Below are positions 22,977 to 47,785 of a stretch of 64,000 bases of DNA, piece by piece. This DNA comes from an uncultured Bacteroidales bacterium (GTDB lineage: Bacteria > Bacteroidota > Bacteroidia > Bacteroidales > FEN-979), in the NCBI GenBank assembly GCA_903887775.1, contig CAISRB010000033.1:310001-374000 (forward strand). The letters run 5' to 3'. The first letter of the stretch is position 1. Every line of letters begins with the position of its first letter. Under the pieces are notes generated by a model, which ran no database searches, was not told the origin of the DNA, and worked only from the letters and a program-made list of their open reading frames with translations. The position numbers were made by a program, and so were the translations under genes.

Positions 22977-24179
22977 ATGCAACAGATTAAAAATAGTTTG
23001 GTTTTATTATTGGTTTTAAGTTTTGCGGCATCGGATGTTTTTGCGCAACTGCCACCGGAACCTACGGATGGTTCGAGGGTAATTTCAACCTCGGTACCGT
23101 TTTTAACGATAGCTCCCGATGCAAGGGCAGGAGGTATGGGAGATGTCGGAGCTTCTACTTCCCCTGATATTTATTCGATGTTCTGGAATCCGGCAAAATA
23201 TGCCTTTTGCGATAAAGCGCTTGGCATTGGCATTGGCTATGTTCCCTGGCTCAGGGGATTGGTTAATGACATAGGTATGGCTTCACTTTACGGATATTAC
23301 AAAATTGGAGATAAGCAGGCTGTAGCGATGTCGCTCAGGTATTTTTCGATGGGAGAAATCAACTATACCGATGAGAACGGCAAGGACCTTGGCAATTACA
23401 AGCCTAATGAACTGGCAGTTGATGCTACCTATTCCAGGAAATTTTCAAGAGAAATCTCCGGGGCGGTTGCCGCCAGGTTTATTTATTCAAACCTCATCCC
23501 CGGTTATAACGCATATGATGCAAGTGTCAAGCCAGGTTACTCGGTTGCTGCCGACGTTGCTTTCTATTACCACCACCCGATGGAAATCACGGGAACCAGT
23601 GGCGGTTCTATTGACTTTGGATTCGACATTTCGAACATCGGGGCCAAGATATCATACAGCAGCGCTTCCATCCAGAGCAACTTCATCCCTACCAACCTCA
23701 GGCTTGGACCTTCTTTTACGCTCGATATTGATGACTACAACAGGATCTCAGTTGCCATTGACCTGAATAAGCTCCTGGTTCCCACTCCCCCGGTGACCCA
23801 GTATGACAGTGCTTCGAAAACCTATGTTATCATCGCTGGTAAGGATAACAATGTTTCCGCTGTACGCGGGATGCTGCAGTCATTTTACGATGCACCTTAC
23901 GGTTTCAAGGAAGAGCTTCAGGAAATTACCGTGTCAGCCGCCGCCGAATACTGGTATAACAAACTGTTTTCAATACGTGCAGGTTACTTCTATGAATCAA
24001 AATACAAAGGCAACCGGCAATTCTTTACACTTGGGGCCGGTTTGAGGTATAATGTCTTCGGGTTGGATTTCTCATATCTTATTCCTGTTAAACAGAATAA
24101 CCCTTTGCAGAACACGATGGAGTTTACCTTGCTGTTTAATTTCGACACCGAGAAAAAGAGTAAGCAGGCAGCACAGTAG
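22977..24179 (+). CDS. porV: T9SS outer-membrane protein PorV
   Basis: 400-aa FadL-like outer-membrane barrel. Signal peptide ends near DVFAQ. PorV hallmarks are ISTSVPFLTIAPDARAGGMG, GDVGASTSPDIYSMFWNPAK and a beta-strand-rich remainder ending FTLLFNFDT. PorV (LptO) carries folded cargo from the SprA/Sov channel to the PorU attachment complex. It lies 104 bases after the second porU, the standard porU-porV order. The hairpin repeat element lies between this gene and ispF. Confidence 0.94.
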   Translation: MQQIKNSLVLLLVLSFAASDVFAQLPPEPTDGSRVISTSVPFLTIAPDARAGGMGDVGASTSPDIYSMFWNPAKYAFCDKALGIGIGYVPWLRGLVNDIGMASLYGYYKIGDKQAVAMSLRYFSMGEINYTDENGKDLGNYKPNELAVDATYSRKFSREISGAVAARFIYSNLIPGYNAYDASVKPGYSVAADVAFYYHHPMEITGTSGGSIDFGFDISNIGAKISYSSASIQSNFIPTNLRLGPSFTLDIDDYNRISVAIDLNKLLVPTPPVTQYDSASKTYVIIAGKDNNVSAVRGMLQSFYDAPYGFKEELQEITVSAAAEYWYNKLFSIRAGYFYESKYKGNRQFFTLGAGLRYNVFGLDFSYLIPVKQNNPLQNTMEFTLLFNFDTEKKSKQAAQ

Positions 24180-27883: not shown

Positions 27884-29164
27884 ATGAAACTGATTGCAGG
27901 TATTTTTGTATCCGCTGGTGTTGCAATCATAAGCTGTTCCTGTTTTGCAGCAGATTTCCCCAATGAGAATATCACCTTCGATCCCAATATCAAAACAGTT
28001 CAGCTTTACAAGCAGGGTTTTGAGTTGTCGGCCCCTGTACTTCAGCTGAATTCCACCGACCGTTTGTCACTTGACTTTGACGATCTTGATGTTGAATCAA
28101 GGGCCTATAAATATACGATCAGGCATTGTGAATCTGACTGGGCTACTTCAACTGAGCTCAGGCCATTGGAATATATCAGCGGTTATACCGAAGAGAACAT
28201 CAGGGACTTCCAGTATTCCGTCAACACCACGGTACCTTACGTCCATTACGCTGCCACCTTCCCCTCAAATGAGATAAGCCCGAAGATCTCGGGAAATTAC
28301 CTGCTGATCGTCTACCTTGACGATGCAAAAGAGCCTGTTTTTACCAGGAGGTTCATGGTTTTTGAAGCATCTCCGCTCACGATAGAAGGAACAATACAGC
28401 AAGGGTCAAAAACAGAGGATCATTTATCGAAGCAGGAGGTTGACTTCGTCGTGAGGCTTAACGGGTTCAGGGTAATGGATATTAAACGTGACTTAAAGGT
28501 TGTGGTTCAGCAGGATGACCGTTGGGATAATGCTCTCTGGAATGTCATTCCGAGATTTGTCAGGGGGGACGAGCTGGATTACCGTTATGATGAAAACAAC
28601 GTGGTAAACGGGGGCAGCCCTTACCGTAACTTTGACATAAAAAGCCTGATGTATCAGACCGAACGCATTGATAAGATCCGTTTTGACACCCTCTACCAGG
28701 TCTTTCTGCTCGAGGATAAGCCGCGTACCTATAAAAACTATGTTTATAACCAGGATATCAATGGAAGGTATCTTATTAAAAACGAGGTTAATGCAACAAA
28801 TTTTAACATTGAATCAGATTATGCCCGGGTGCATTTTTTTCTTCCCTTTCCTGTACAACTCACCGACGGGGAATTTTACCTCATGGGAGCACTTACAAAC
28901 TGGAGGATGGACGGGAACAGCAGGCTGCAGTTCAATACCTCAAACAGGCGTTATGAATTAAGCTTTCTTCTGAAGCAGGGGTATTACAATTATATATATG
29001 TTATGTTAAAGAAAGGTAAAACCATGGGCGATGAATCCCTGGTTGAGGGCAGCCATTGGGAAACCCCGCATATTTACACAATCTTCGTTTATTACCGTTC
29101 CGGCGGGGCCCAATCCGATCAGCTGATCGCCGTACAAAATATCAACTCCATTCAACAGAATTAA
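27884..29164 (+). CDS. Type IX secretion system plug protein (DUF5103 family)
   Basis: 426 aa. Signal peptide ends near CSCFAAD, followed by the first plug domain (TVQLYKQGFELSAPVLQLNSTDRLSLDFDDLD, YKYTIRHCESDW, LEYISGYTEENIRDFQYS) and a C-terminal Ig/CBM-like domain (GEFYLMGALTNWRMDGNSRL). In Flavobacterium the Plug protein closes the periplasmic face of the SprA channel when no PorV-cargo is engaged. The gene is monocistronic here, 4 kb after porV, with its own promoter element and a palindromic leader. Confidence 0.88.
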   Translation: MKLIAGIFVSAGVAIISCSCFAADFPNENITFDPNIKTVQLYKQGFELSAPVLQLNSTDRLSLDFDDLDVESRAYKYTIRHCESDWATSTELRPLEYISGYTEENIRDFQYSVNTTVPYVHYAATFPSNEISPKISGNYLLIVYLDDAKEPVFTRRFMVFEASPLTIEGTIQQGSKTEDHLSKQEVDFVVRLNGFRVMDIKRDLKVVVQQDDRWDNALWNVIPRFVRGDELDYRYDENNVVNGGSPYRNFDIKSLMYQTERIDKIRFDTLYQVFLLEDKPRTYKNYVYNQDINGRYLIKNEVNATNFNIESDYARVHFFLPFPVQLTDGEFYLMGALTNWRMDGNSRLQFNTSNRRYELSFLLKQGYYNYIYVMLKKGKTMGDESLVEGSHWETPHIYTIFVYYRSGGAQSDQLIAVQNINSIQQN

Positions 29165-32500: not shown

Positions 32501-34015
32501 ATGCTTTTCAACTCCCTGCAGTTTGTATTGTTCTTTATCATCGTTACCACACTTTACTTTTTAATCAAACATAAGTACAGATGGATCCTACTGCTGTTAA
32601 GCAGTTGTTATTTCTATATGGCCTTCGTGCCTGCTTATATACTTATCCTTCTTTTTACTGCCCTGGTTGATTACTTTGCGGGGATCGCGATAGAAAAAAG
32701 CGATGGGGGAAGAAAGAAATTTTTCCTGGTTATCACACTGATCGCCAATATAGGAGTGCTCGGTTTTTTCAAGTATTATAATTTCCTGAACGATAACATT
32801 GCTCATCTGCTGGGAAGCGTCGGTTTACAGGAAAGGCTGCCATTCCTTTCGTTCATTTTACCCATCGGTTTATCGTTCCATACCTTCCAGGCGATGAGTT
32901 ATACAATAGAGATCTACCGGGGAAAGCAAAAAGCTGAACGGAAATTCGGGATGTACTTTCTGTACGAGATGTTTTTCCCAAGGCTGGTTGCGGGTCCTAT
33001 TGAACGGCCTCAGAACTTGCTTCACCAGTTTTATGAACACCATGAATTTGACCCTGCCAGGGTCAGCAGCGGACTCCAGCTTATGGCCTGGGGCTTATTC
33101 AAGAAGCTGGTGATTGCTGACCGGCTTGCTCTGATCGTTAATAATGTTTATGAATATCCGCAGAATTTCCAGGGGATATCTCTGATCATCGCCACAGTTT
33201 TTTTTGCATTCCAGGTGTATTGCGACTTTTCAGGGTATACCGACATTGCCATCGGCGCCGCGGAAGTCCTGGGCTTTAAACTGATGACAAACTTCAACAG
33301 GCCTTATCTTTCAAAATCGATAGCCGAATTCTGGCAGCGCTGGCATATCTCACTTTCAACCTGGTTCCGCGACTATGTTTATTTGCCCCTGGCTTATTCT
33401 ACTTCGAGGAAACTGAAGGAGGAAACATTCTTAGGCATCAGGGTCGATTATGTGGTTTATACCTATGCAACCATGATCACCTTCCTGATCTGCGGACTAT
33501 GGCATGGGGCAAGCTGGAATTTCGTCATATGGGGTGGGCTGCATGGATTTATGCTGGTTATTGCCGTCCTGATCACTAAACCTAAAACAAAACTATTTCA
33601 TAAACTGGGGATCAACAGGCATAGCAGGCCATATCTTGTCTTCCAGGTACTGGTTACTTTTTCGCTGGTTTCTTTAGCCTGGGTGTTCTTCAGGGCGAAC
33701 ACCCTGCATGATGCAGTATATATTACAAAGCATATGTTCACAGGGATATCCGGCAATATTAAAGAGGTTATGCAGAATCATTCCGCATTCAAAACCATTA
33801 TAACACTTGATTCGGGAAGGAACTTTGTTTTCAGCATCATCATCCTTCCTGTTTTTTTCTGGATTGAAAGCCTGCAGAGAAAATTAGACATCCGGGAACT
33901 CGTGAAACAACAGCCTCTTTTTAAAAGGTATGTTATTTATTATATTTTCATCATGATCTTCATTCTCTTCGGCGTCTTTGATGCCAGCCGTCAATTCATT
34001 TATTTTCAGTTCTGA
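32501..34015 (+). CDS. Membrane-bound O-acyltransferase (MBOAT/AlgI family), module 1
   Basis: 504-aa polytopic membrane protein with about 10-12 hydrophobic segments. AlgI-type features are FNSLQFVLFF at the start, FFPRLVAGPIERPQNLL, FNRPYLSKSIAEFWQRWHISLSTWFRDYVYLPL, and the catalytic His in ICGLWHGASWNFVIWGGLHG. These proteins move acyl groups across or onto surface polymers, usually with an SGNH-type partner. The stop overlaps the ATG of the next gene by one base (TGATG), so the SGNH-like protein is its coupled partner. The acylated substrate is unknown. It forms the left half of a convergent pair with the MBOAT at 36736-38184. Confidence 0.92.
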   Translation: MLFNSLQFVLFFIIVTTLYFLIKHKYRWILLLLSSCYFYMAFVPAYILILLFTALVDYFAGIAIEKSDGGRKKFFLVITLIANIGVLGFFKYYNFLNDNIAHLLGSVGLQERLPFLSFILPIGLSFHTFQAMSYTIEIYRGKQKAERKFGMYFLYEMFFPRLVAGPIERPQNLLHQFYEHHEFDPARVSSGLQLMAWGLFKKLVIADRLALIVNNVYEYPQNFQGISLIIATVFFAFQVYCDFSGYTDIAIGAAEVLGFKLMTNFNRPYLSKSIAEFWQRWHISLSTWFRDYVYLPLAYSTSRKLKEETFLGIRVDYVVYTYATMITFLICGLWHGASWNFVIWGGLHGFMLVIAVLITKPKTKLFHKLGINRHSRPYLVFQVLVTFSLVSLAWVFFRANTLHDAVYITKHMFTGISGNIKEVMQNHSAFKTIITLDSGRNFVFSIIILPVFFWIESLQRKLDIRELVKQQPLFKRYVIYYIFIMIFILFGVFDASRQFIYFQF

Positions 34016-34956
34016 TGAAAAAAAATATTCTGCATATACTGATCCTCACTCTGCTCATTGCCGTTTCCTGCACGGGAATTTATTATTACTATAAGTATAA
34101 GGTACGGACTAATACGAATGATTTTGTTCTGGCGCTTGCCGATAAAACAGTTATTCTCCAAAACACAAAAGCGCCCCGCATAGTGTTCGTGGGAGGTTCA
34201 AACCTGGTTTTTGGGGTTGACAGCAAGAGGGTTGCAGATTCAACCGGGCTTCCGGTTGTAAATATGTCAATGCTGGGTGGGTATGGCCTCACGTTTATGC
34301 TGAATGGCGTAAGGCCCGGCATCAGAAAAGGCGACATTCTCATACTCTCGTTTGAATATTTCCTGGGTGAAGGGGAAATGGATCTGCTTGCTCATACGGT
34401 AGATATGGTCCCGGCAGCATACTCCTACCTGAACTCCTGGGAGAGGCGGGCTTATCCGCTTGCTGAAGCCAAACTCAGGCTTAAACAGTTTGTCGAAGCA
34501 TTGCAGAGGGTGGCACAATTCAATACCGGCTGGGTGGAAGAGATCTACAGGAGGGATGGGTTCAATTCATACGGTGACGTTATCTCTCATCTGGAGAAAC
34601 CTACACCAAAAGTGCTTGGCAGAAGGTTCAAGATCGAGGCTACCGATTATTCCTATTACATTGGATTGATTAATGAATTTGCCGCATATGCCAGGAGCAG
34701 GGGCGCAACTTTGTATTATCTGTATCCTGACTATCCCCGTTCGGAATTCAAAAAGTATTTCCCCGAAATTACTTCCTATGACCAGCAAATGAGACAATCA
34801 CTGAATATCCCCATATTGAACAAGGTCGATACATTTATTTATGATGATGAATATTTTTTCGATACAGTGTATCACCTGAATAAACAGGGCAGGGAAATGC
34901 GAACCAATCAATTGATCAGCATACTATTAGAATATATAAGAAACAGGAATGTTTAA
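34015..34956 (+). CDS. SGNH-like membrane-anchored protein, partner of MBOAT module 1
   Basis: 313 aa with one N-terminal membrane anchor (ILHILILTLLIAVSCTGIYYYY) and an extracytoplasmic domain. SGNH-type features are IVFVGGSNLVFGVDS (nucleophile Ser in the G-S-N turn) and a C-terminal FFDTVYHLNKQGREM (Asp/His block). By analogy with DltD, AlgX/AlgJ and PatB, it would complete transfer of the acyl group taken up by the MBOAT. Coupled by TGATG overlap to the MBOAT gene. It shows the same layout as the minus-strand protein at 35785-36732, though the two are clearly diverged. Confidence 0.7.
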   Translation: MKKNILHILILTLLIAVSCTGIYYYYKYKVRTNTNDFVLALADKTVILQNTKAPRIVFVGGSNLVFGVDSKRVADSTGLPVVNMSMLGGYGLTFMLNGVRPGIRKGDILILSFEYFLGEGEMDLLAHTVDMVPAAYSYLNSWERRAYPLAEAKLRLKQFVEALQRVAQFNTGWVEEIYRRDGFNSYGDVISHLEKPTPKVLGRRFKIEATDYSYYIGLINEFAAYARSRGATLYYLYPDYPRSEFKKYFPEITSYDQQMRQSLNIPILNKVDTFIYDDEYFFDTVYHLNKQGREMRTNQLISILLEYIRNRNV

Positions 34957-34973
34957 CCGCTTATACCGTAATA

Positions 34974-35783
34974 ATGAAAAACGAAGCCGAAGAAAGAGTA
35001 GCAAAGTTTTACAGTGAAAAAGGATGGGAAGTAGTCGATGGGCTTACGAAAGATGCAATTCTATATGAGGATTTCAGGGAAAATGCCATTGATTATGTAA
35101 TAAAATGCCGGAAAAGGGTTCAGAATTATATCCCGGAAAGCGGGGGCGAAAATATTCTTGACGTTGGCTCAGGAGCTGTGCAGTTCCAGGAATACCAGGA
35201 TTATTCGAAGGATTTTAAAAAAAGATGGTGCAACGACCTTTCTCAAAAGGGGCTCGATGAGGCCGAAAAAAGGATAGGCGACCACGGCGTGTTTTTACAC
35301 GGGAGTTTTTTTGATCTCAATCTTGAACCTGATTTCTTCGATTGTGCCATCAGCCTGCATTGTATCTACCATATGGATAAAGATAAGCAGGAAGAGGCTG
35401 TGCGAAAGATGATCAGGGTGACTAAGCCGGGCCACCGGGTAATCATTGTCTATGCTAATCCCAGGACATTGATTTTTTATTTTAAAGTGCCTTTTAAAAT
35501 ACTGAAGAAGGTTATTGGGTTGTTCAGGAAGAACAAGCCCCGGGAGGAAGTTGATCTGTATTATTATGTGCATCCTGTCGGATGGTGGAAGAGATTTAAG
35601 GATGTAGCTGACGTAAAGCTGGTTCCCTGGCGTTCATTCCGCTCAGATGACCAGAAAAAAATCATACCAAATTCGGAATTTGGGAAGAAAATCTTTGAAA
35701 CTCTTTATCAATGGGAAGACCGCTTCCCCGGTTTTTTCGTCAGGTTCTTTGAATACCCGATGATTATCCTTACGAAGAAATAA
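34974..35783 (+). CDS. Class I SAM-dependent methyltransferase
   Basis: 269 aa. SAM-binding motif I is NILDVGSGAVQFQEY (about residues 58-72), with an acidic motif II region and FDCAISLHCIYHM as motif IV. A C-terminal part (PVGWWKRFKDVADVKLVPWRSF) resembles methyltransferases found in polysaccharide or lipid loci. It lies 17 bases after the SGNH-like gene, so it is in the first MBOAT operon. It ends one base before the convergent SGNH-like gene. The substrate is unknown; the surface glycan modified by the MBOATs is a reasonable guess. Confidence 0.8.
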   Translation: MKNEAEERVAKFYSEKGWEVVDGLTKDAILYEDFRENAIDYVIKCRKRVQNYIPESGGENILDVGSGAVQFQEYQDYSKDFKKRWCNDLSQKGLDEAEKRIGDHGVFLHGSFFDLNLEPDFFDCAISLHCIYHMDKDKQEEAVRKMIRVTKPGHRVIIVYANPRTLIFYFKVPFKILKKVIGLFRKNKPREEVDLYYYVHPVGWWKRFKDVADVKLVPWRSFRSDDQKKIIPNSEFGKKIFETLYQWEDRFPGFFVRFFEYPMIILTKK

Positions 35784-35784
35784 T

Positions 35785-36732
35785 CTACAGGTAAGGCCTG
35801 AGTCTGTCGCAAAGCCTCCGGCTGAAAATTTTTGCCCCAAGGTCATTCAGATGACGCGTATCGTTGAATAGTTCGCGATGGGCAGCAAAGTACGGATCGT
35901 CAGTAAAATCCAAAAGTGGTATCCCGTAAGATTTACCAATCTCCATGATTTTTTGAAGAGAGGGATTATGCCCTTCCATCTTAAATCGTATATCAGGGGA
36001 GCAAACCATCAGGACGGCTATTTTTTTTGAAACCGCTGTCTTCAAAAAATCACTGAAAGCAGTTTCAAAAGCAGGATCAAATTCGCGGTCCTGTTCACTC
36101 ATAAATTTAATCGAATCAACCCCTCTCTGAACCCTGTAATCTTCAGAATTCATTATATGTAACAATGGTACATAGCCTTTAAGGTCTCCCTGGGGTTTGA
36201 TCCGGTAGTATAGAATATGGACTATAGTTGAATTGTACTGATAAGACCTCGAAAACAGCCATATTTTCTGGAGTTTCGACTGCAATGAAAGTACAGGCCC
36301 GATGATGTCGGGAAACCTGAACCAGAAAGGCCTGAGTTCACTTAGATTATCATAAGCATCCTGGGATTTGTAGAGCCAGTCGGGGCTGATGTCGAGGATC
36401 AGCAATTTCGGCCGGCGGTTCTGTAAAAGGATCTTCTGTACGGTTGACTGGTAAAGGATCTGCTGGCCCTGGGACCCGAGGTTATAGGAATTAATGGCCA
36501 GGGTTTTATCAAGGATCCCCGGATGGTAATGATGGCTTGAACGGCTGCTTCCAAAGATAAACACATCACCGTCGGCCTGCCTGAATGCATGGCTCATACG
36601 GTAAAATTTTCCTGATCTCTGGGTGAAAAAAACAAACCTCGCCGCTGACCCGAGGACAATATCGATCAGAACAAGGATAACGAAGAACTTTATCCCTTTA
36701 ACCACAATCGATTTTAACTGCCCTTTCATCAT
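35785..36732 (-). CDS. SGNH-like membrane-anchored protein, partner of MBOAT module 2
   Basis: 315 aa with an N-terminal membrane anchor (FFVILVLIDIVLGSAARFVF) and a periplasmic domain. SGNH-type blocks are VFIFGSSRSSHHYHP near residue 55 and a C-terminal FNDTRHLNDLGAKIF (Asp/His). DISPDWLY lies in the middle. It follows the MBOAT gene with a three-base gap, so the two are cotranslated. Role by family analogy: extracytoplasmic acyl transfer or acyl-enzyme partner. Confidence 0.7.
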   Translation of the reverse strand: MMKGQLKSIVVKGIKFFVILVLIDIVLGSAARFVFFTQRSGKFYRMSHAFRQADGDVFIFGSSRSSHHYHPGILDKTLAINSYNLGSQGQQILYQSTVQKILLQNRRPKLLILDISPDWLYKSQDAYDNLSELRPFWFRFPDIIGPVLSLQSKLQKIWLFSRSYQYNSTIVHILYYRIKPQGDLKGYVPLLHIMNSEDYRVQRGVDSIKFMSEQDREFDPAFETAFSDFLKTAVSKKIAVLMVCSPDIRFKMEGHNPSLQKIMEIGKSYGIPLLDFTDDPYFAAHRELFNDTRHLNDLGAKIFSRRLCDRLRPYL

Positions 36733-36735
36733 CGG

Positions 36736-38184
36736 TCAGAATTTGAAATACATAAACTGGCTGGCATCAAAGACGCCCAGGTATAATATCAGGAATATCA
36801 GCAATCCGTAAGTGATCATTCTAACATATTCATTCCGGTTTTTAGTAAATGAGAACTTAAGATCGAAGAACTCCCTTTTTATTTCTATCAGTAAAAGGAT
36901 CAGGATGCCAAGTACGGCATAAACAGGGGCAACCACGTCACTGTCGAAGGGGATATACAGTTTTCCCGGTTGTGTGAAGATTGTCCTGATGATCAGGAAT
37001 GCATCGTGAACATTATCGGAACGGAAGAATATCCAGGTGAACAAAACCATGATATAAGTAATGAAGATGTTCAGTAATCGTTTCCCCGTTTTGCGGTCAA
37101 TCGCCCTTTCGATGATCAGGTATATCCCGTGAAGGCTGCCCCAGATCATGAAAGTCAGCCTGGCTCCATGCCATATTCCGCAGATAAAAAACGTAATAAA
37201 GGCCGCAAAAGCATAAGTAAGAAATTCCGGGCTGATAATCTTTAGATAGCGTTCTTTCCTGAAGATCCTCATAAATGAGAAAGCCAGGGGGTTGAAAAGA
37301 TAATCCCTCAGCCAGGAGGAAAGTGACATATGCCAGCGGGTCCAGAATTCGCGAATGGAGGAGGAGAAATATGGCCGGTTGAAGTTCTGGTACACATCGA
37401 AGCCCATCAGGCGGGCTGAGCCTATTGCAATGGCAGAATACCCGGCAAAATCGGTATAGATCTGAAAACTGTACAGGACTATGGCCGCCATGAAAGTAAT
37501 TCCTCCATGCCTTGGCAGGTTCCCAAAGACAGCGTCAACATAAATGGAAGTGCGGTCGGCAATCACGAGTTTCAGGAAATAGCCGAAAATGATCAGCTTG
37601 ATGCCTTCTTCGATATTAACGGAGTGTAACTTTTGCCGTTCTTTTTCACGGAGCTGGGGCAGCAAATGTGTAGAGCGCTCAATGGGGCCTGAAAGGATCA
37701 GAGGGAAGAAGGCGACATACAGGGCAAAGATGCCGGGATGTTTTTCCGCATCTCGACGGCCATAATATACATCTATGATATAGCTTAGCGACTGAAGCGT
37801 ATAATAAGATATGCCGATTGGTGCAATCAGGAGCAGGGCAGGAGATATTCGGCTGGGATGGTCTGACTGAAAGATAGTTTGAAACATCTCTGCAATGAAA
37901 CCAAGATACTTGAAAATAACGAGAAGCCCGAGGTTGATGACCAGTGTTGATATCATTATTAGTTTCTTTCTCTTCTGTACGGAGGTTCCCGACATAAGCA
38001 GCGCTGAAGAGTAATTGATGAGGGTGGAAACCACAATGACGACAATAAACTCAGGTTTCCAGCACATATAGAAGTAGTAGCTTGCGGCAAGCAGGAGTAA
38101 CCAGCGGAAACGAAGAGGTGTAAGGTAAAACAGTATGACTACTGCAGGAAGGAAAAGGATATATTGAATGGAATTAAAAAACAT
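36736..38184 (-). CDS. Membrane-bound O-acyltransferase (MBOAT/AlgI family), module 2
   Basis: 482-aa polytopic protein. MFFNSIQYILFLPAVVI, FFPLILSGPIERSTHLLPQL, FNRPYFSSSIREFWTRWHMSLSSWLRDYLFNPL, and catalytic His in ICGIWHGARLTFMIWGSLHG. It belongs to the same family as module 1 but with many differences, so it is an old paralogue rather than a recent copy. Gene order on the minus strand is acyl carrier protein, MBOAT, SGNH-like protein, each separated by three bases. The carrier protein suggests an acyl-phosphopantetheine donor as in the dlt D-alanylation pathway, although no DltA-like ligase is present. Confidence 0.92.
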   Translation of the reverse strand: MFFNSIQYILFLPAVVILFYLTPLRFRWLLLLAASYYFYMCWKPEFIVVIVVSTLINYSSALLMSGTSVQKRKKLIMISTLVINLGLLVIFKYLGFIAEMFQTIFQSDHPSRISPALLLIAPIGISYYTLQSLSYIIDVYYGRRDAEKHPGIFALYVAFFPLILSGPIERSTHLLPQLREKERQKLHSVNIEEGIKLIIFGYFLKLVIADRTSIYVDAVFGNLPRHGGITFMAAIVLYSFQIYTDFAGYSAIAIGSARLMGFDVYQNFNRPYFSSSIREFWTRWHMSLSSWLRDYLFNPLAFSFMRIFRKERYLKIISPEFLTYAFAAFITFFICGIWHGARLTFMIWGSLHGIYLIIERAIDRKTGKRLLNIFITYIMVLFTWIFFRSDNVHDAFLIIRTIFTQPGKLYIPFDSDVVAPVYAVLGILILLLIEIKREFFDLKFSFTKNRNEYVRMITYGLLIFLILYLGVFDASQFMYFKF

Positions 38185-38187
38185 TCA

Positions 38188-38430
38188 TCAGCGGGTTTTT
38201 GTGAGAATAGTTTTACAAAGATCGCCCACATTGGCCCATGATTGAATCTCCTGGGTGGTAAATCTGATTTTAAAGGATCTTTCCACGGCAAGGACCAGCC
38301 TGATATGAGAGAAAGAATCCCATCCTTCCACATCAGAGACAATGGTATCGGGTTTCAATTGAATAACACTGTCATGAAAGACTTCGCCGAAAACCTTCTC
38401 CAGCCCGGTCATGATCGCCTGCTCCTCCAT
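38188..38430 (-). CDS. Acyl carrier protein
   Basis: 80-aa carrier protein from ATG 38430 (MEEQAIMTGLEKVFGEVFHD). Ser in GWDSFSHIRLV is the phosphopantetheine site, and the helix layout is normal (PDTIVSDVEGWDS; VERSFKIRFTTQEI). It is not the fatty-acid AcpP, which normally has DSLDTVE. It is the first gene of the operon with MBOAT 2 and SGNH 2, so it probably carries the acyl group used by this module. An upstream in-frame ATG at 38457 is less likely because a TACTTTTG promoter box lies at 38454-38447. Confidence 0.88.
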   Translation of the reverse strand: MEEQAIMTGLEKVFGEVFHDSVIQLKPDTIVSDVEGWDSFSHIRLVLAVERSFKIRFTTQEIQSWANVGDLCKTILTKTR

Positions 38431-38454: not shown

Positions 38455-38551
38455 CAATTTTTTCTTTGTTCATTATATTCCCTGCCAAACTACTATGAAA
38501 AAACACTCTGAAAGATTCTGCAGAGCCAGCATAATTGGCATAGATTTCCTG

Positions 38552-38563: not shown

Positions 38564-40189
38564 ATGAAAAAGATTTTTCTGATTACATTATTTATAGTAT
38601 TTGCAATCTCAATAAATGGGTTTACACAGAAGAACGGCAATCTTGGAAATACAAGGATCACCGTACACTGTACTTCGGCAGTTTCATCAGTTACTCTCAC
38701 AAAGACCCCTTTAAAATACAATAAGCTGTTTGCTTTTAGCGCCCAGCTTGATGATGGGGGATTGGACATTTATACAAATGCCTACCCTTTCCTGAATGGC
38801 GGAAGTGTAAGTGGAATAACATATCCGGGCCTTCAATATACCGATGGATGCGGTAATGAGATTAAATTCAGGATGAGCAGTTCGATATTTTCCTTTGATG
38901 ATACTGAAACCATCGACGTGCATGAACCCGGAACCGGCTGGTCTTTCCTTAATACCTGGCCACAGCTCATTGAGTTGTACCAGCAGGGCTGGGGGATCAG
39001 TAATCACGGTCTTACAAACAAAGTTGGTGAATACGAATATTCGCTCGAGAGAAATCACAGCTACGTGAAACTTAAAACTCAGGTAGCAACTCCGGGGGGA
39101 GTGCGCCTGGGGATTTTTGTCAATCCGAACGGAGATACGAATTATACCAAATATGCATTTCAGCAAGGTTATCACATTTGTTATGTACAGGGATATAATT
39201 TCGGGTATCCCAGTTTTGATGTTACTTCGGCATGGAACCATAACAATATAAGGATGGGCAGGACTAATTTTTACAATGGCATCAGCATTGCTGCCATCGC
39301 CCAAAATATGGCCTTGGCGAGTATCAGCGGCGCCCATCACTGGGGTGTTGTTTTTTCACATTCAATCACCAATGGAACATACGGATATGATTTTGAAACC
39401 TTCAAATCTCAAATGACTGCAATTGCATATAATTATGGAAAGAGCGGCGCTGATAATATATGGATGACAACCGAGGAAGAAGTTCTGGACTATCTTTTAC
39501 TAAGTCCTTATCTGACAGTAAATTCAGAGAAGTCGGGAAATGATGTCATCATTACTTTCGCCGGCAATCTCCCGACTGATTTTCGATACTATGCGGTTTC
39601 ACTGCTGTTAAATACGGATGCAAGTATACAGACTGTGAACCTTTCCGGGCCGGGTAATTTAACTTATAACGGACAGGGGACTAAACAATCACTGATCAAC
39701 ATCAATTGGGATAAAGCCACCTTATTGCCTGACACCACTGACCCTGAAGTCAATGATGCTGAGAAATGGGTCAGCAAAACAGAAGCATCCCAAAGCCAGC
39801 TTGATGCAAATATTGCCGTTGATTATGTTGAAATGCTTTCCCCGGGTACGGTAAAAGATAGTTTCCGAAGGCGGTTATGTAACATTTCCGGTCTGATTTA
39901 CCCAAAATATTTTTGTGCATTAGGAGTGGAAGATCATCAAATATCTTCAGATCCCCGGATTTTTTTAAATCCGGCTACAGGCAGCCTGGTAGTTTCTTCG
40001 ACGGTTGCTTTTAGCAGCGTAAGTCTGCTAAGCCTTCAAGGTAAGGTACTCATCAGAAAAGAAATATCAGCCTTGCAGGTTTTACTTGATGTAAGCGGTT
40101 TAAGCCAGGGTATATACCTGCTCAGCATCACTTCCGGGAGCAGGGTTATTAATCGAAAGGTGATAATTAATAAAATACAGGCTCATTAG
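38564..40189 (+). CDS. Secreted T9SS cargo protein with polysaccharide-deacetylase-like domain
   Basis: 541 aa from ATG 38564. Signal peptide MKKIFLITLFIVFAISINGF, then a region resembling NodB-type deacetylases: KLFAFSAQLDDGG (the DD pair), GWGISNHGLTNKVG (where NodB proteins have HxxxH) and GAHHWGVVFSHSI. The second His of the usual metal motif is Asn here (HGLTN), so activity is uncertain. A beta domain and a type A T9SS sorting domain follow (FLNPATGSLVV...LSQGIYLLSITSGSRVINRKVII). An in-frame extension to 38411 crosses the divergent promoter region and is rejected. It is divergent from the acyl carrier protein operon. Confidence 0.78.
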   Translation: MKKIFLITLFIVFAISINGFTQKNGNLGNTRITVHCTSAVSSVTLTKTPLKYNKLFAFSAQLDDGGLDIYTNAYPFLNGGSVSGITYPGLQYTDGCGNEIKFRMSSSIFSFDDTETIDVHEPGTGWSFLNTWPQLIELYQQGWGISNHGLTNKVGEYEYSLERNHSYVKLKTQVATPGGVRLGIFVNPNGDTNYTKYAFQQGYHICYVQGYNFGYPSFDVTSAWNHNNIRMGRTNFYNGISIAAIAQNMALASISGAHHWGVVFSHSITNGTYGYDFETFKSQMTAIAYNYGKSGADNIWMTTEEEVLDYLLLSPYLTVNSEKSGNDVIITFAGNLPTDFRYYAVSLLLNTDASIQTVNLSGPGNLTYNGQGTKQSLININWDKATLLPDTTDPEVNDAEKWVSKTEASQSQLDANIAVDYVEMLSPGTVKDSFRRRLCNISGLIYPKYFCALGVEDHQISSDPRIFLNPATGSLVVSSTVAFSSVSLLSLQGKVLIRKEISALQVLLDVSGLSQGIYLLSITSGSRVINRKVIINKIQAH

Positions 40190-40244: not shown

Positions 40245-42602
40245 TTAAAAAGGATAACCTATCCCGAAATTCCACACAATATCCCGGAATTGCAGTTTCC
40301 CAAAATACCATGGATTTCCCGCCGGGGCCCACGGGACTTTTATTGGTATGGCAGGATCGAGGCGTATCATAAAAAAGTTAAAGTCAAGCCTGAGACCGAG
40401 GCCTGTGCTGATTGCTATTTCAGGCAGGAAATCCGTAAGTGTTATCTCTCCGCCAGGGAGACTGGGCGAGGGTTTCAGCAGCCATACGTTCCCCATATCA
40501 ACAAATAAAGCTCCTTTGACGACTTTATATATAGGGAAACGGTATTCTATATTGGCTTCTATTTGCATATCGCCAAATTGGTCATAATTTGCATCGGAGG
40601 CATCGTTATAATAACTTCCCGGTCCGAGGAAGCCCATTTTCCAACCTCTCAGGTCGTTTGCCCCGCCGGCGAAAAAGGCTTTTTCAAAAGGCAGGGCCAC
40701 AGAATTGCCATAAGCAATACCGATACCGGCATAGAAACGGTATACAACTGAATGTTGGTTCCCGAACTTCTCATAATAGCGGAAGTCAAAATCGGGGCGT
40801 ACATACTGAGCATACTGAATATTTAGCAAGGTATAATTTCCGGTACTGTTTTTTGGGGCTTTAACCAGGTTATCGATACCGTATAAAAGGTTCCCGCCTG
40901 TCTCAAAGTTCGACCTTATATAAATATAATCGTTGAGGAGGTTGAGTTTCTGGCTGGTGTATTGCAGGGTGTATCGTAACCCGGCAACCAGATGGTCGGT
41001 ATACTGGTATTTTAACCTCTGGTCGGTGAGTGAATTAAGATAATCATTGAAATATTCATCTCCGAAGACTTTCACGAGGGCGATTTCAACAGGGTTAAAA
41101 GTCTGACTGAGCCGGTTGTTCTGAACCCAGGTATAGCCGAAAGTGGCGTTCGTGATATGACGGTCGTAATCCTGCTGCCGCTGGAAATTATATCCTATGC
41201 TGATCGTTGTTTTCGGCTTCAATTTCTTCGATATTTTTTCCGGTTTTATCGGAAAAAGAAACTGTGGGAAAGTGAGGCTGGCGCTTACTCCGATCTCGAG
41301 AACATTGAATATCCTTTTTGGCAGGCTGTCATACAGGGGAGGTTGTGTCTGGGCTGAAATATTCAAACCCAGTCTTAACAGCTGGGCGCCCCTGAAGATA
41401 TTCCTGTTCGAATAAGTAAGTCCTCCCTGTAAGCCAAAAGCTCCGGCTGAGTTGGTGCCATCAGTGGAAACGCTGAAGGCATTGCCGGCTGATCTTGATA
41501 ACTGTACATTGCAATCGATGGGATCGGAATTCTTCTTTGTTGAATCTCTTATTGATTTTGATGGAGAAAAGTTCATGTTAATATATTTGAAGACCTGCAG
41601 GTTCGCCAGGCGGCTGTATGTCTGGTTAACAGCATCAAGACTGTAGTAATTACCCGGCTCCACAAAGATTGACTGGGCAATGGTACGGGGTTTGATTGAC
41701 ATTTTTCCATCATACAGAAAATAGTAGCTGTATTTTGATTTTTCTTTTTTGGGGCCCACAAACTCTACAAGCAGTGTGTCGTAACGAACCGAGTCACCTG
41801 CCAGATGATCGAATTCCGGATAAATAAACAGCCTGTTAACATAGTATCGTTTATGAGGAAGAGTATCCATTATTGAACTATTGGTGAAGGAAGGAATCAC
41901 AGGATTGGAGATTTCAACAGTTATATCCAGTTTATGCTGGCCCAGTGTGCTGTCGACACGGTATGCAATGTAATTCGTTGTGAACCGGAAAAATCCATAG
42001 TTGTTCAGGCTGGTGGCAATACGGCTGCGCTCATCATCAAGTTTGTAAGCATCATAGTTATTGCCGGGTTTGATAAGCGAGCGGGCAGTATCCTTAAAAA
42101 CGAACCTGGCTAACAGAGTATCCGGGATAACATACCCGATTTTCCTTGTTTTATAAGGCTTTGATGTTTTTACGTGGTAATGAACTGTTGCTTTTTTCTT
42201 TTTGATAACGACGGAATCCCTGACGGAGGAATTAAAATATCCTTTGTTGGCAAGGTAAAGTACCATCTGTTTACTGGCTATCACAGACATCCCTGAGTCG
42301 AGCAGCACAGGAGCTGCTCCTGCTGAATTCCTCAACCATTTCTTAAACTTTGTATCCTTACCTTTGCAGCCCATGTTATACAGGGCGATGTTCGACCTGA
42401 ACAAGCCGAACAATTTTTTATTCGGCTGCTGCTGAAGGTAACCGCTCAGGTCATCCGCAGTAACCTTTGGTGTATTTATATGAAATTTATTCTGGATAAG
42501 AAGATACTCCTTTGGCCCGAGGTTTTTTGTGACATTGCAAGCCGCCAGGATCACAAGAATAAAGGAAAAACAGATCCACTGGCGGATTGGTATTGGCTTC
42601 AA
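40245..42602 (-). CDS. Outer-membrane lipoprotein of the BamA/TamA (Omp85) family
   Basis: 785 aa from a TTG at 42602 (MKPIPIRQWICFSFILVILAAC), which gives a lipoprotein signal with lipobox ILAAC. POTRA-like N-terminal repeats are followed by a C-terminal 16-strand-type barrel with GGLTYSNRNIFRGAQLL, PFEKAFFAGGANDLRGWKMGFLGPGSY (the Omp85 G-x-x-D-L-R-G-W motif) and a final strand ending WNFGIGYPF. It is likely involved in outer-membrane protein or lipoprotein export. A TTG at 42626 is the longest reading but overlaps the TACTTTTG box (42635-42628). No neighbour shares its operon. Confidence 0.88.
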   Translation of the reverse strand: MKPIPIRQWICFSFILVILAACNVTKNLGPKEYLLIQNKFHINTPKVTADDLSGYLQQQPNKKLFGLFRSNIALYNMGCKGKDTKFKKWLRNSAGAAPVLLDSGMSVIASKQMVLYLANKGYFNSSVRDSVVIKKKKATVHYHVKTSKPYKTRKIGYVIPDTLLARFVFKDTARSLIKPGNNYDAYKLDDERSRIATSLNNYGFFRFTTNYIAYRVDSTLGQHKLDITVEISNPVIPSFTNSSIMDTLPHKRYYVNRLFIYPEFDHLAGDSVRYDTLLVEFVGPKKEKSKYSYYFLYDGKMSIKPRTIAQSIFVEPGNYYSLDAVNQTYSRLANLQVFKYINMNFSPSKSIRDSTKKNSDPIDCNVQLSRSAGNAFSVSTDGTNSAGAFGLQGGLTYSNRNIFRGAQLLRLGLNISAQTQPPLYDSLPKRIFNVLEIGVSASLTFPQFLFPIKPEKISKKLKPKTTISIGYNFQRQQDYDRHITNATFGYTWVQNNRLSQTFNPVEIALVKVFGDEYFNDYLNSLTDQRLKYQYTDHLVAGLRYTLQYTSQKLNLLNDYIYIRSNFETGGNLLYGIDNLVKAPKNSTGNYTLLNIQYAQYVRPDFDFRYYEKFGNQHSVVYRFYAGIGIAYGNSVALPFEKAFFAGGANDLRGWKMGFLGPGSYYNDASDANYDQFGDMQIEANIEYRFPIYKVVKGALFVDMGNVWLLKPSPSLPGGEITLTDFLPEIAISTGLGLRLDFNFFMIRLDPAIPIKVPWAPAGNPWYFGKLQFRDIVWNFGIGYPF

Positions 42603-42627
42603 CTTAAAGGAGATTATTAATGACAAA

Positions 42628-45860: not shown

Positions 45861-46517
45861 GTGAAAAAACCACCTTCCAGTAATTATATAATGCAGGTCT
45901 ACTATACCGACCCGCGTGAGGAGATGCCTGGTTTTATCCCGCTGTCATGCAAACGGATTCTTGAAGTTGGCTGCGGTGAAGGAAATTTCGGGATGCTTCT
46001 GAAAGAAAGAGAAGGAGTTGAAGTATGGGGCGTGGAATTGTCGGAACCTTCCGCAGCGATCGCTGGTAAAAGGCTTGACAGAGTGTTCCCGGGTGATTTT
46101 TATGATAATTATCAGTATCTGCCTGAGAAATATTTCGACTGCCTGGTTTTTAACGATGTTCTTGAACACTTCACCGATCCTGACAGGGTACTTGAGATGT
46201 GCAGGGAAATTCTGTTACCTGGTGGCTATATTGTAAGCTCAATTCCAAATGTACGTTATATCCGCAACCTTTATGAAGTTCTGATCGAAAAGGATTGGGA
46301 ATATAAAGCCGGGGGCATCCTCGACAGGACTCATTACCGCTTCTTCACTCAAAAAAGCATCATCAGGATGTTCAACAGGGCGGGATATGTCATAGAGAGC
46401 TGCACGGGCATCAACCCGACCAATAATTTTTTGACCAGATTGCTGGGGATTATCACGTTTGGCCATATGTCAGATGTGAGATTTCTTGAATTTGCTACAG
46501 TTGCCCGCTTAAACTGA
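45861..46517 (+). CDS. Class I SAM-dependent methyltransferase, glycan-locus type
   Basis: 218 aa. SAM motif I is RILEVGCGEGNFGMLL, then VELSEPSAAIAGKRLD, FDCLVFNDVLEHFTDPDRVL and LLPGGYIVSSIPNVRY. This pattern is common in methyltransferases of O-antigen and capsule loci. GTG start at 45861; an ATG at 45891 (MQVYYTDPR) is an alternative, and TAATTTTA (45849-45856) just upstream could be its -7 box. A flippase gene follows after 14 bases, supporting a surface-polysaccharide role. Confidence 0.82.
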   Translation: MKKPPSSNYIMQVYYTDPREEMPGFIPLSCKRILEVGCGEGNFGMLLKEREGVEVWGVELSEPSAAIAGKRLDRVFPGDFYDNYQYLPEKYFDCLVFNDVLEHFTDPDRVLEMCREILLPGGYIVSSIPNVRYIRNLYEVLIEKDWEYKAGGILDRTHYRFFTQKSIIRMFNRAGYVIESCTGINPTNNFLTRLLGIITFGHMSDVRFLEFATVARLN

Positions 46518-46531
46518 TATCTTGACAATCA

Positions 46532-47785
46532 ATGTTTAAGAACATTTCAAAGCTGGTTGCAGGAACATTCATTGCACAGCTAATCACATTTCTTGTTGCC
46601 CCGGTAATAACGCGTTTATTTACCCCTTCAGATTTTGGCGCTTTTACCTTTCTTATTTCAATTGCGGGGGGTATCGGAATGGTTGCCACACTCAGGTACG
46701 AGATGGCCATAATTCTCCCGGCCGACGACAAAGACTCGATCAACCTGGCCTTTCTTTCACTGATCATCGCATTATTCATCTCGATTATATCAACTGCCAT
46801 CCTGTTTATTGCTGACCGGCTTTTTTTCCCCGGTATTATTATGAACCCCTTGTATCGCAATTGGATATACCTGCTCCCTGCCCTGATCTTTCTGATGGCA
46901 GCAAGCAGTGTTTTCCAGCAGTGGTACAATCACAGGAAGGAATACAGAACGCTGGCATACTCGAAAGTAATCACTTCGGCAGTGAACAATTCCACAACAC
47001 TGTTGATGGGTCTTGCCGGTTTTGGAGCATTGGGATTGTGGTTGGGGAACTTCGCCGGATCTCTGTTCGTCATCCTTTTTTTTGCTATTCTTTTTTACTT
47101 CCGCTACCGCGGAAACCTGGGGTATTTTGACATTTCATTGCAAAAAGTCCTTGCTGCAAAATACAAATACCTTCCCATGGCCAATACGCCACAGGTGATT
47201 GTGGAAATGGTTCAGTCATATGGCATCATATACCTGCTGAAGATATTCTTCGCTTCTTCAGTTTTGGGATTTTTTTCGCTGTCACTTCGTCTGCTCCAGG
47301 CTCCAATGTGGCTTGTCGGCATTTCTATCGGACAGGTTTTCTATAAAGAAGCATCTGAAAGATTTAAGAAAGACGGGAACCTGATACAACCGGTCATGAA
47401 AACGATCAGAACGTCTGCAATCATCGCTTTACCCGTATCTGTCATCCTGTTGACAATAGGCCCATGGCTGATTGGCCTGATCTTCGGCCATGCATGGACC
47501 GAAGCAGGCCGGTACGCCCGAATACTGGCGCCATGGATGTTTTTTGATTTTGTACGTTCGACAATCAGTCAGACCCCTCTCATCATACGCAAAGCCAGGC
47601 CCATGTTCTTTATCGCTGTGCTCGGCGCTATGTTTATCATCATTCCCATTGTTGCAGGGGGGATTTTTTTCAGGGACCCCTCAATCGGATTTATCCTGCT
47701 TACGATAACCCATAGTTTGTATTCTATTGGAGTCATTGCATGGATCATCAACATAGCGAAGAAAAGCAGTCAAAACACGGAATGA
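46532..47785 (+). CDS. Oligosaccharide flippase (Wzx/MVF-like)
   Basis: 417-aa polytopic membrane protein, about 12 hydrophobic segments. It begins MFKNISKLVAGTFIAQLITFLVAPVITRLFTPSDFGAFTF, a standard Wzx-type start, with LRLLQAPMWLVGISIGQVFYKEASERF, typical of the polysaccharide biosynthesis protein family. It would translocate undecaprenyl-linked sugars. It is paired with the preceding methyltransferase. No glycosyltransferases or polymerase are in reach, so this is a small or orphan glycan pair. Confidence 0.88.
   Translation: MFKNISKLVAGTFIAQLITFLVAPVITRLFTPSDFGAFTFLISIAGGIGMVATLRYEMAIILPADDKDSINLAFLSLIIALFISIISTAILFIADRLFFPGIIMNPLYRNWIYLLPALIFLMAASSVFQQWYNHRKEYRTLAYSKVITSAVNNSTTLLMGLAGFGALGLWLGNFAGSLFVILFFAILFYFRYRGNLGYFDISLQKVLAAKYKYLPMANTPQVIVEMVQSYGIIYLLKIFFASSVLGFFSLSLRLLQAPMWLVGISIGQVFYKEASERFKKDGNLIQPVMKTIRTSAIIALPVSVILLTIGPWLIGLIFGHAWTEAGRYARILAPWMFFDFVRSTISQTPLIIRKARPMFFIAVLGAMFIIIPIVAGGIFFRDPSIGFILLTITHSLYSIGVIAWIINIAKKSSQNTE

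Follow-up and report, generated by a model that had tools for sequence, protein, structure and literature searches.

The question raised by this stretch of DNA from an uncultured Bacteroidales bacterium (contig CAISRB010000033.1; the 64,000-nucleotide stretch is called the window) is whether six adjoining genes for acyl transfer and methylation work as one system, and from which donor their acyl groups would come. On the plus strand an MBOAT acyltransferase (P0001), an SGNH-fold partner (P0002) and a methyltransferase (P0003) run head-on into a minus-strand set made of an acyl carrier protein (ACP; P0006), a second MBOAT (P0005) and its SGNH partner (P0004). The products P0001-P0006 are numbered in window order, and positions of open reading frames follow the numbering of the window. 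Our data favor, with a probability that we put at about 60%, the reading that these genes are an accessory set for a variant of MBOAT-SGNH glycan acylation that is fed by a carrier and accompanied by a methyltransferase.

The acyl-transfer pairs and the stretch between the histidines

P0001 and P0005 both match the Pfam MBOAT family far above its cut-off (72.2 and 72.7 bits against 27) and match the DltB sequence 6bug at 104.8 and 111.5 bits, and their scores with the DltB equivalog, 164.9 and 175.3 bits, lie under the cut-off of 375. The active-site histidines are H282 and H335 in P0001 and H285 and H339 in P0005. Each protein ends in an FXYXXF tail, FIYFQF (499-504) in P0001 and FMYFKF (477-482) in P0005, the acyl-shuttle motif whose tyrosine bears the acyl group in PatA and DltX, as an excerpt of PMC12148441 describes. 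The motif is found in 172 of the 174 collected MBOATs that exceed 430 residues and whose 3' end is not cut, and therefore marks the whole MBOAT group and not specifically this locus. The original prediction of two diverged MBOAT-SGNH modules with a carrier protein is borne out: the MBOATs are 37% identical and fall in separate clades of the MBOAT tree, and the SGNH proteins give only a short, weak match to each other (E 0.02). On the same grounds, a recent duplication of one half was rejected.

In DltB, the stretch between the active-site histidines holds helix HC, the docking site of DltC (PMC11035591). We scored a GG loop, defined as [PS][LMI]GG between the two histidines, in 173 distinct MBOATs, and counted an MBOAT as linked if a carrier gene lay within 5 kb. 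The loop is present in 129 of the 144 unlinked MBOATs and missing from 26 of the 29 ACP-linked ones (Fisher p 3e-17), or from 24 of 27 once the two window proteins are removed. One MBOAT, L192, was first scored as unlinked, its carrier lying inside a long open frame; once L192 is counted as linked, loop-less proteins make up 26/30 of the linked and 15/143 of the unlinked set. A 10-kb definition of linkage gives 28 linked and 13 unlinked proteins among the loop-less, and 10 linked and 122 unlinked among the loop-bearing. The pattern also scores the unlinked L071 (PVGGNR) as loop-less, which works against the association. Within the P0001 clade (n = 37), a carrier lies within 10 kb of five of the six loop-less members, P0001 included, compared to three of the 31 loop-bearing members (p 7e-4); P0001 is scored as linked since the P0006 gene of the same locus is 4.2 kb away, so that its own case cannot count as independent evidence. 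The GG loop is missing from both window MBOATs, their histidine-to-histidine segments measure 53 and 54 residues in P0001 and P0005, and the longer segment that replaces the loop aligns with DltB helix HC. The unlinked MBOATs would, on the precedent of PatA, use acyl-coenzyme A (acyl-CoA). One MBOAT encoded elsewhere in the genome of the window (L024:8895-10382, contig C9) carries Asn in place of the first active-site histidine, the sole case among the 173 aligned.

The history of P0001 may be mosaic. Residues 1-240 agree with six clade members at 62-69% identity and with the MBOAT at L022 of the same genome at 33%, whereas over residues 301-340 the protein is 62% identical to the L022 protein without a gap and 41-52% identical to the clade, where 10-11 residues are missing. 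All compared MBOATs share a conserved core near the active site, which raises identity over the intervening residues 241-300. This pattern hints at an old exchange of the segment; a convergent insertion is a possible alternative. Where P0001 and the L022 protein are similar, roughly half of the residues they share are encoded by the same codon, which is within the range found elsewhere in the pair, and this codon identity lends no support to recent gene conversion between the two.

The SGNH partners are assigned by different kinds of evidence. P0004 matches the Pfam families DUF1574 (30.8 bits, cut-off 29.1) and DltD (27.2 bits, cut-off 22.7), both marginally, and scores 24.5 with the DltD equivalog, whose cut-off is 150. 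Its model (pLDDT 87.7) has DltD as the top fold match (E 1.8e-7, TM-score 0.45) among 31 matches at E<=0.001. Pfam directly assigns five of the six products, P0002 being the exception, with no match at E<=1; its probable SGNH identity therefore rests on its model, on conserved Ser, Asn and His residues and on homologs adjoining MBOATs. The P0002 model (pLDDT 77.6) also has DltD as its top Foldseek match (E 5.3e-4, TM-score 0.40 by query length) and as its only match at E<=0.001; the next matches, with E of 0.004 and above, are mostly GDSL/SGNH enzymes, PatB and OatA among them. The residues for a putative catalytic Ser-Asp-His arrangement are complete in P0004, in which Ser63, Asn84, Asp291 and His294 are kept in 13/13 aligned sequences, and partly present in P0002, in which Ser62, Asn83 and His287 are kept in 13/13 and Asp283 in 11/13 (Asn in the other two). 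At 18 of the 19 P0002 loci examined besides the window's own, an MBOAT lies inside the 1.5-kb flanks, and the remaining locus is at a contig end; the genome with the weakest P0002 match, G236, gave no locus. This neighborhood supports P0002 as a true MBOAT partner.

The carrier protein, its loading and the methyltransferase

P0006 scores 22.6 bits with the PP-binding family, barely above the cut-off of 20.8, and 13.7 with the dltC equivalog, whose cut-off is 52.35. Its phosphopantetheine site, GWDS, places the serine at residue 48 of the longest form, which has 89 residues. Among 395 genomes of the class, 80 have a relative of P0006, counting its own genome. We examined the neighborhoods of the best 30 matches from outside the window, some on contigs that are cut, and found an MBOAT within 5 kb at 21 of them. 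An FkbH gene accompanies the carrier at 10 of these 21 loci, an AMP ligase at seven and neither at four; among the nine loci with no MBOAT detected, FkbH is present at five and neither gene at four. The FkbH labels come from NCBIfam for four proteins and from a local profile for the others, and the L192 carrier was placed by hand. When the question is turned around, a carrier gene is found in 6 of 80 named MBOAT loci within the stretch examined, and adjoins the matched MBOAT in none.

FkbH makes a glyceryl-carrier. No FkbH was found in the island's own genome (G000) or in its relative G030, and the same search matched four of six other genomes; these four, where FkbH had already been shown by the local profile, serve as positive controls. 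FkbH loading in this genome was rejected on these results. As originally noted, a DltA-like ligase is missing from the locus, the window containing no AMP-binding match. It does not follow that the donor is a fatty acyl-ACP, since relatives of the carrier sit with FkbH or AMP ligase genes and the genome has 11 AMP-binding matches, all outside the window. With FkbH not found and these 11 ligases elsewhere, the donor can therefore be an acid loaded in trans or, possibly, a fatty acyl group supplied by general fatty-acid synthesis. On contig C7 of the same genome (L118:1366-3519) an AMP ligase is followed by a small carrier-like protein, possibly a loader module, although a later profile gave the small protein no label.

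Related loci show further combinations. At L176, L179, L181 and L184, FkbH, ACP, MaoC-like and SDR genes stand beside an MBOAT gene; families were checked for L176 and local profiles used elsewhere, and these clusters perhaps build, on a carrier, an acyl group for a glycan that has not been described before. Seven Aquimarina stretches (L026, L028-L031, L033 and L034) contain two or three MBOATs each, with an ACP in six of the seven and an AMP ligase in five of those six, and include some of the nearest named relatives of P0005 and P0004.

The methyltransferase P0003 matches Methyltransf_11 at 48.2 bits (cut-off 21.2). Its relatives were sought among translated open frames of 150-400 residues in the collected loci, and the sole strong match comes from another phylum: L042:9153-9962 of Margulisbacteria GWF2_35_9, 60% identical over the full length. 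An MBOAT-SGNH pair follows directly downstream of the L042 gene, a second pair is found farther along, and many glycosyltransferase-like genes surround them, so that the cluster reads as a polysaccharide cluster; local profiles label its two MBOATs, the first SGNH protein and the methyltransferase, and the other names are our reading of the sequences. This arrangement is our best evidence, taken from sequence, that methylation and double acylation may belong together on a glycan, and it speaks for the glycan decoration originally proposed as the likely role.

An accessory island and its surroundings

Homologs of P0004 were found in six of 60 related genomes and homologs of P0002 in none, and neither was found in any of the seven genomes of the same genus (all at E<=0.001). 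To compare the site itself we used the flanking gene at 40245-42626, which was matched in five of these seven genomes, four of them informative, as the stretch from G005 ended too early. By tblastn of the six products (E<=1e-8) the genes are absent from the site in all four (G002, G003, G006 and G007), which retain the upstream flank genes, including the gene for the type IX secretion system (T9SS) plug protein. G030, G008 and G015 also lack the six genes at the corresponding site. The six genes are therefore an accessory island, present here and absent from the site in the informative sister genomes. In G030, the ACP-MBOAT-SGNH half occurs in the same order and in a different setting, at 44, 72 and 56% identity, and the other half was not found within the 20 kb examined around it. 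Among the 395 genomes of the class, P0002 has homologs in 20 others.

Close MBOAT pairs, within 5 kb, were found at 6/80, 5/40 and 1/30 MBOAT loci in three sets, which were gathered with different queries and contain many short contigs. The 12 pairs other than the window's own comprise 11 on the same strand, one divergent and none convergent. A conserved, symmetrical six-gene system, as first proposed, is thus unsupported, both by the distribution in related genomes and at the site: the two halves are rarely together in the genomes searched. A foreign base composition was also rejected, as the G+C content of the six genes (0.419-0.457) resembles that of the window (0.446).

The gene order, the coordinates (Table 1) and the spacing were all reproduced from the sequence: P0001 and P0002 overlap in TGATG, with base 34015 common to both genes, P0002 and P0003 are separated by 17 bases, P0004 and P0005 as well as P0005 and P0006 by three bases each, and the convergent stop codons by one. 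P0006 has alternative starts at 38457 (TTG) and 38412 (ATG).

Table 1. Island genes with window coordinates, and a related MBOAT gene elsewhere in the genome.
Feature	Position	Strand	Length	Basis or remark
P0001, MBOAT acyltransferase	32501..34015	+	504 aa	Pfam MBOAT match
P0002, putative SGNH-fold protein, partner of P0001	34015..34956	+	313 aa	alignment, model, neighborhood of homologs
P0003, S-adenosylmethionine-dependent methyltransferase	34974..35783	+	269 aa	Methyltransf_11
Single base between convergent stop codons	35784..35784	.		sequence
P0004, SGNH (DUF1574/DltD-like) protein, partner of P0005	35785..36732	-	315 aa	Pfam DUF1574 and DltD
P0005, MBOAT acyltransferase	36736..38184	-	482 aa	Pfam MBOAT match
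P0006, acyl carrier protein	38188..38430	-		PP-binding; phosphopantetheine site GWDS
L022 MBOAT	L022:8808-10265			contig C7, same genome as the window

The island is flanked in the window by T9SS genes, PorV at 22977-24179 and the plug protein at 27884-29164. An action on T9SS-linked lipopolysaccharide had been suggested; four genomes of the genus keep the plug gene without the island, and this link is therefore unsupported. The divergent neighbor of the ACP gene (38564-40189) encodes a putative polysaccharide deacetylase sorted by the T9SS; G030, which lacks the island there, has a 58% relative at the corresponding position. At 45861-47785, about 7 kb away from the island, a methyltransferase gene is followed by one for a polysaccharide-biosynthesis (flippase-like) protein.

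Proposed pathway, alternatives and known systems

In the pathway that we propose, two MBOAT-SGNH transmembrane machines and a methyltransferase would jointly decorate an exported surface glycan. Each MBOAT would accept an acyl thioester at the cytoplasmic side and transfer the acyl group to its own tyrosine in the C-terminal FXYXXF tail, from which the partner SGNH enzyme would load it onto its serine and deliver it to the glycan on the outer side of the inner membrane. In the minus half the dedicated ACP, P0006, would present the donor acyl group on its phosphopantetheine arm and may dock on the DltB-like helix of P0005, placed where most carrier-less relatives have the GG loop. P0006 would receive its acyl group in trans, either from fatty-acid synthesis or through an AMP ligase whose gene lies elsewhere, and the plus-strand P0001, which has the same type of segment, may use the same ACP. 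What the data show directly are the genes and their motifs, the fold matches, the accessory nature of the island, the failure to find FkbH and the association between ACP linkage and loss of the loop; catalysis, donor, docking, loader and glycan target we infer. A stronger version, in which the one ACP feeds both MBOATs, an altered docking segment made P0001 switch from CoA to a carrier, and donor choice in bacterial MBOATs is predictable from the inter-histidine stretch, seems to us unlikely as a whole.

Several observations weigh against the carrier-fed reading. The Fisher p-values are too small, as the tips are related (by parsimony the loop state changes 12 times and carrier linkage 14 times), and most of the ACP-linked loci were collected through the ACP. 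Seven MBOATs with a long segment of 52-53 residues (L017, L019, L022, L024, L292, L295 and L297), two of them from this very genome, have no carrier within 5 kb, and the donor inference is therefore weak for P0001; an eighth, L085, has a segment of 58 residues. Conversely, three ACP-linked MBOATs keep the GG loop, or four counting L192. The window contains no loader, and no glycosyltransferase cluster was recognized beside the island among the 10 window proteins scanned, which are a part of its neighbors. The global, query-normalized TM-scores of both SGNH fold matches are low, and P0002 has a DxxxH spacing in place of the canonical DxxH, the usual one in SGNH proteins (PMC9487903, in part).

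A rival explanation is that of two unrelated cassettes that happen to meet head-on, the plus one an ordinary CoA-fed MBOAT-SGNH O-acetyltransferase with a methyltransferase and the minus one separately ACP-fed, with no common carrier or polymer. We rate this explanation somewhat below even odds. No other place in the genomes searched was found to have both halves, and none of the 12 other close MBOAT pairs is convergent; MBOATs resembling P0001 are common, with matches at E<=1e-120 in 73 of 395 genomes of the class, counting its own, and the GG loop is carried by 31 of the 37 members of the P0001 clade, 28 of those 31 with no ACP detected within 10 kb. P0001, however, lacks the loop of its clade and has instead a long segment of the P0005 type, and the combination of a methyltransferase with two MBOAT-SGNH pairs recurs in L042. 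It is far less probable that the ACP feeds no MBOAT and, being merely upstream, serves another pathway. This would suit the nine of 30 ACP relatives with no MBOAT detected within 5 kb, some of which are on short contigs, and the mere 44% identity between P0006 and its G030 counterpart, but it leaves unexplained the three-base spacing between the ACP and MBOAT genes, their same order in G030 and the MBOAT near 21 of the 30 relatives, and DltB offers a precedent for carrier docking (PMC11035591, in part).

A dispersed Dlt-like pathway, in which a non-fatty donor such as an amino or hydroxy acid is loaded onto the ACP by an AMP ligase elsewhere in the genome, is a serious contender, slightly more doubtful than not. 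AMP ligase genes lie by 7/30 and FkbH genes by 15/30 of the ACP relatives, one of the 11 AMP-binding matches in the genome is followed by the carrier-like protein on contig C7, and the Aquimarina clusters that hold P0005 relatives contain ligase-ACP-MBOAT-SGNH modules; against this, none of the ligases is in the window.

Comparison with known systems helps to place the carrier-fed reading. Like PatA/PatB and AlgI/AlgJ-X, the island has MBOATs with a fused C-terminal FXYXXF shuttle and an SGNH partner encoded as a gene pair; unlike them, it has an ACP gene adjoining one MBOAT, that of the minus half, with none adjacent to the plus half, and its MBOATs lack the GG loop that unlinked relatives typically have. 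With Dlt (DltA, DltB, DltC, DltD and DltX) it has in common a carrier protein, DltB-like MBOATs and DltD as the top SGNH fold match. It differs from Dlt in the absence of DltA, in the shuttle tail fused to the MBOAT in place of a separate DltX, in DltB, DltC and DltD equivalog scores far below cut-off, and in the doubled MBOAT-SGNH pair with a methyltransferase. The FkbH-ACP-(MaoC-SDR)-MBOAT-SGNH clusters of Bacteroidia contain the same type of ACP, an MBOAT and often an SGNH protein, yet FkbH was not found in the island's genome. The Margulisbacteria cluster L042 resembles the island in its methyltransferase beside two MBOAT-SGNH pairs and differs in having no ACP detected in 19.8 kb, GG-loop MBOATs, a same-strand order and glycosyltransferase-like neighbors. 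The viosamine island is a further possible parallel.

According to an excerpt of PMC12148441, MBOAT-SGNH pathways other than Dlt have no similar carrier and use acyl-CoA, and the carrier-linked pairs with a fused tail therefore represent a variant. The kinds of component are known, and their combination, together with the apparent carrier-docking helix, is unusual; in the open-licence literature, judged by titles and the starts of abstracts, we found no account of a glycan locus of the ACP-MBOAT-SGNH kind in bacteria. Loci of this kind suggest that carrier-linked, fused-tail versions of the pathway recur in Bacteroidia. The state of the loop between the histidines offers a readable sign in the sequence of which donor an MBOAT may take, and such a sign would help to predict surface-glycan chemistry on the basis of genome sequences.

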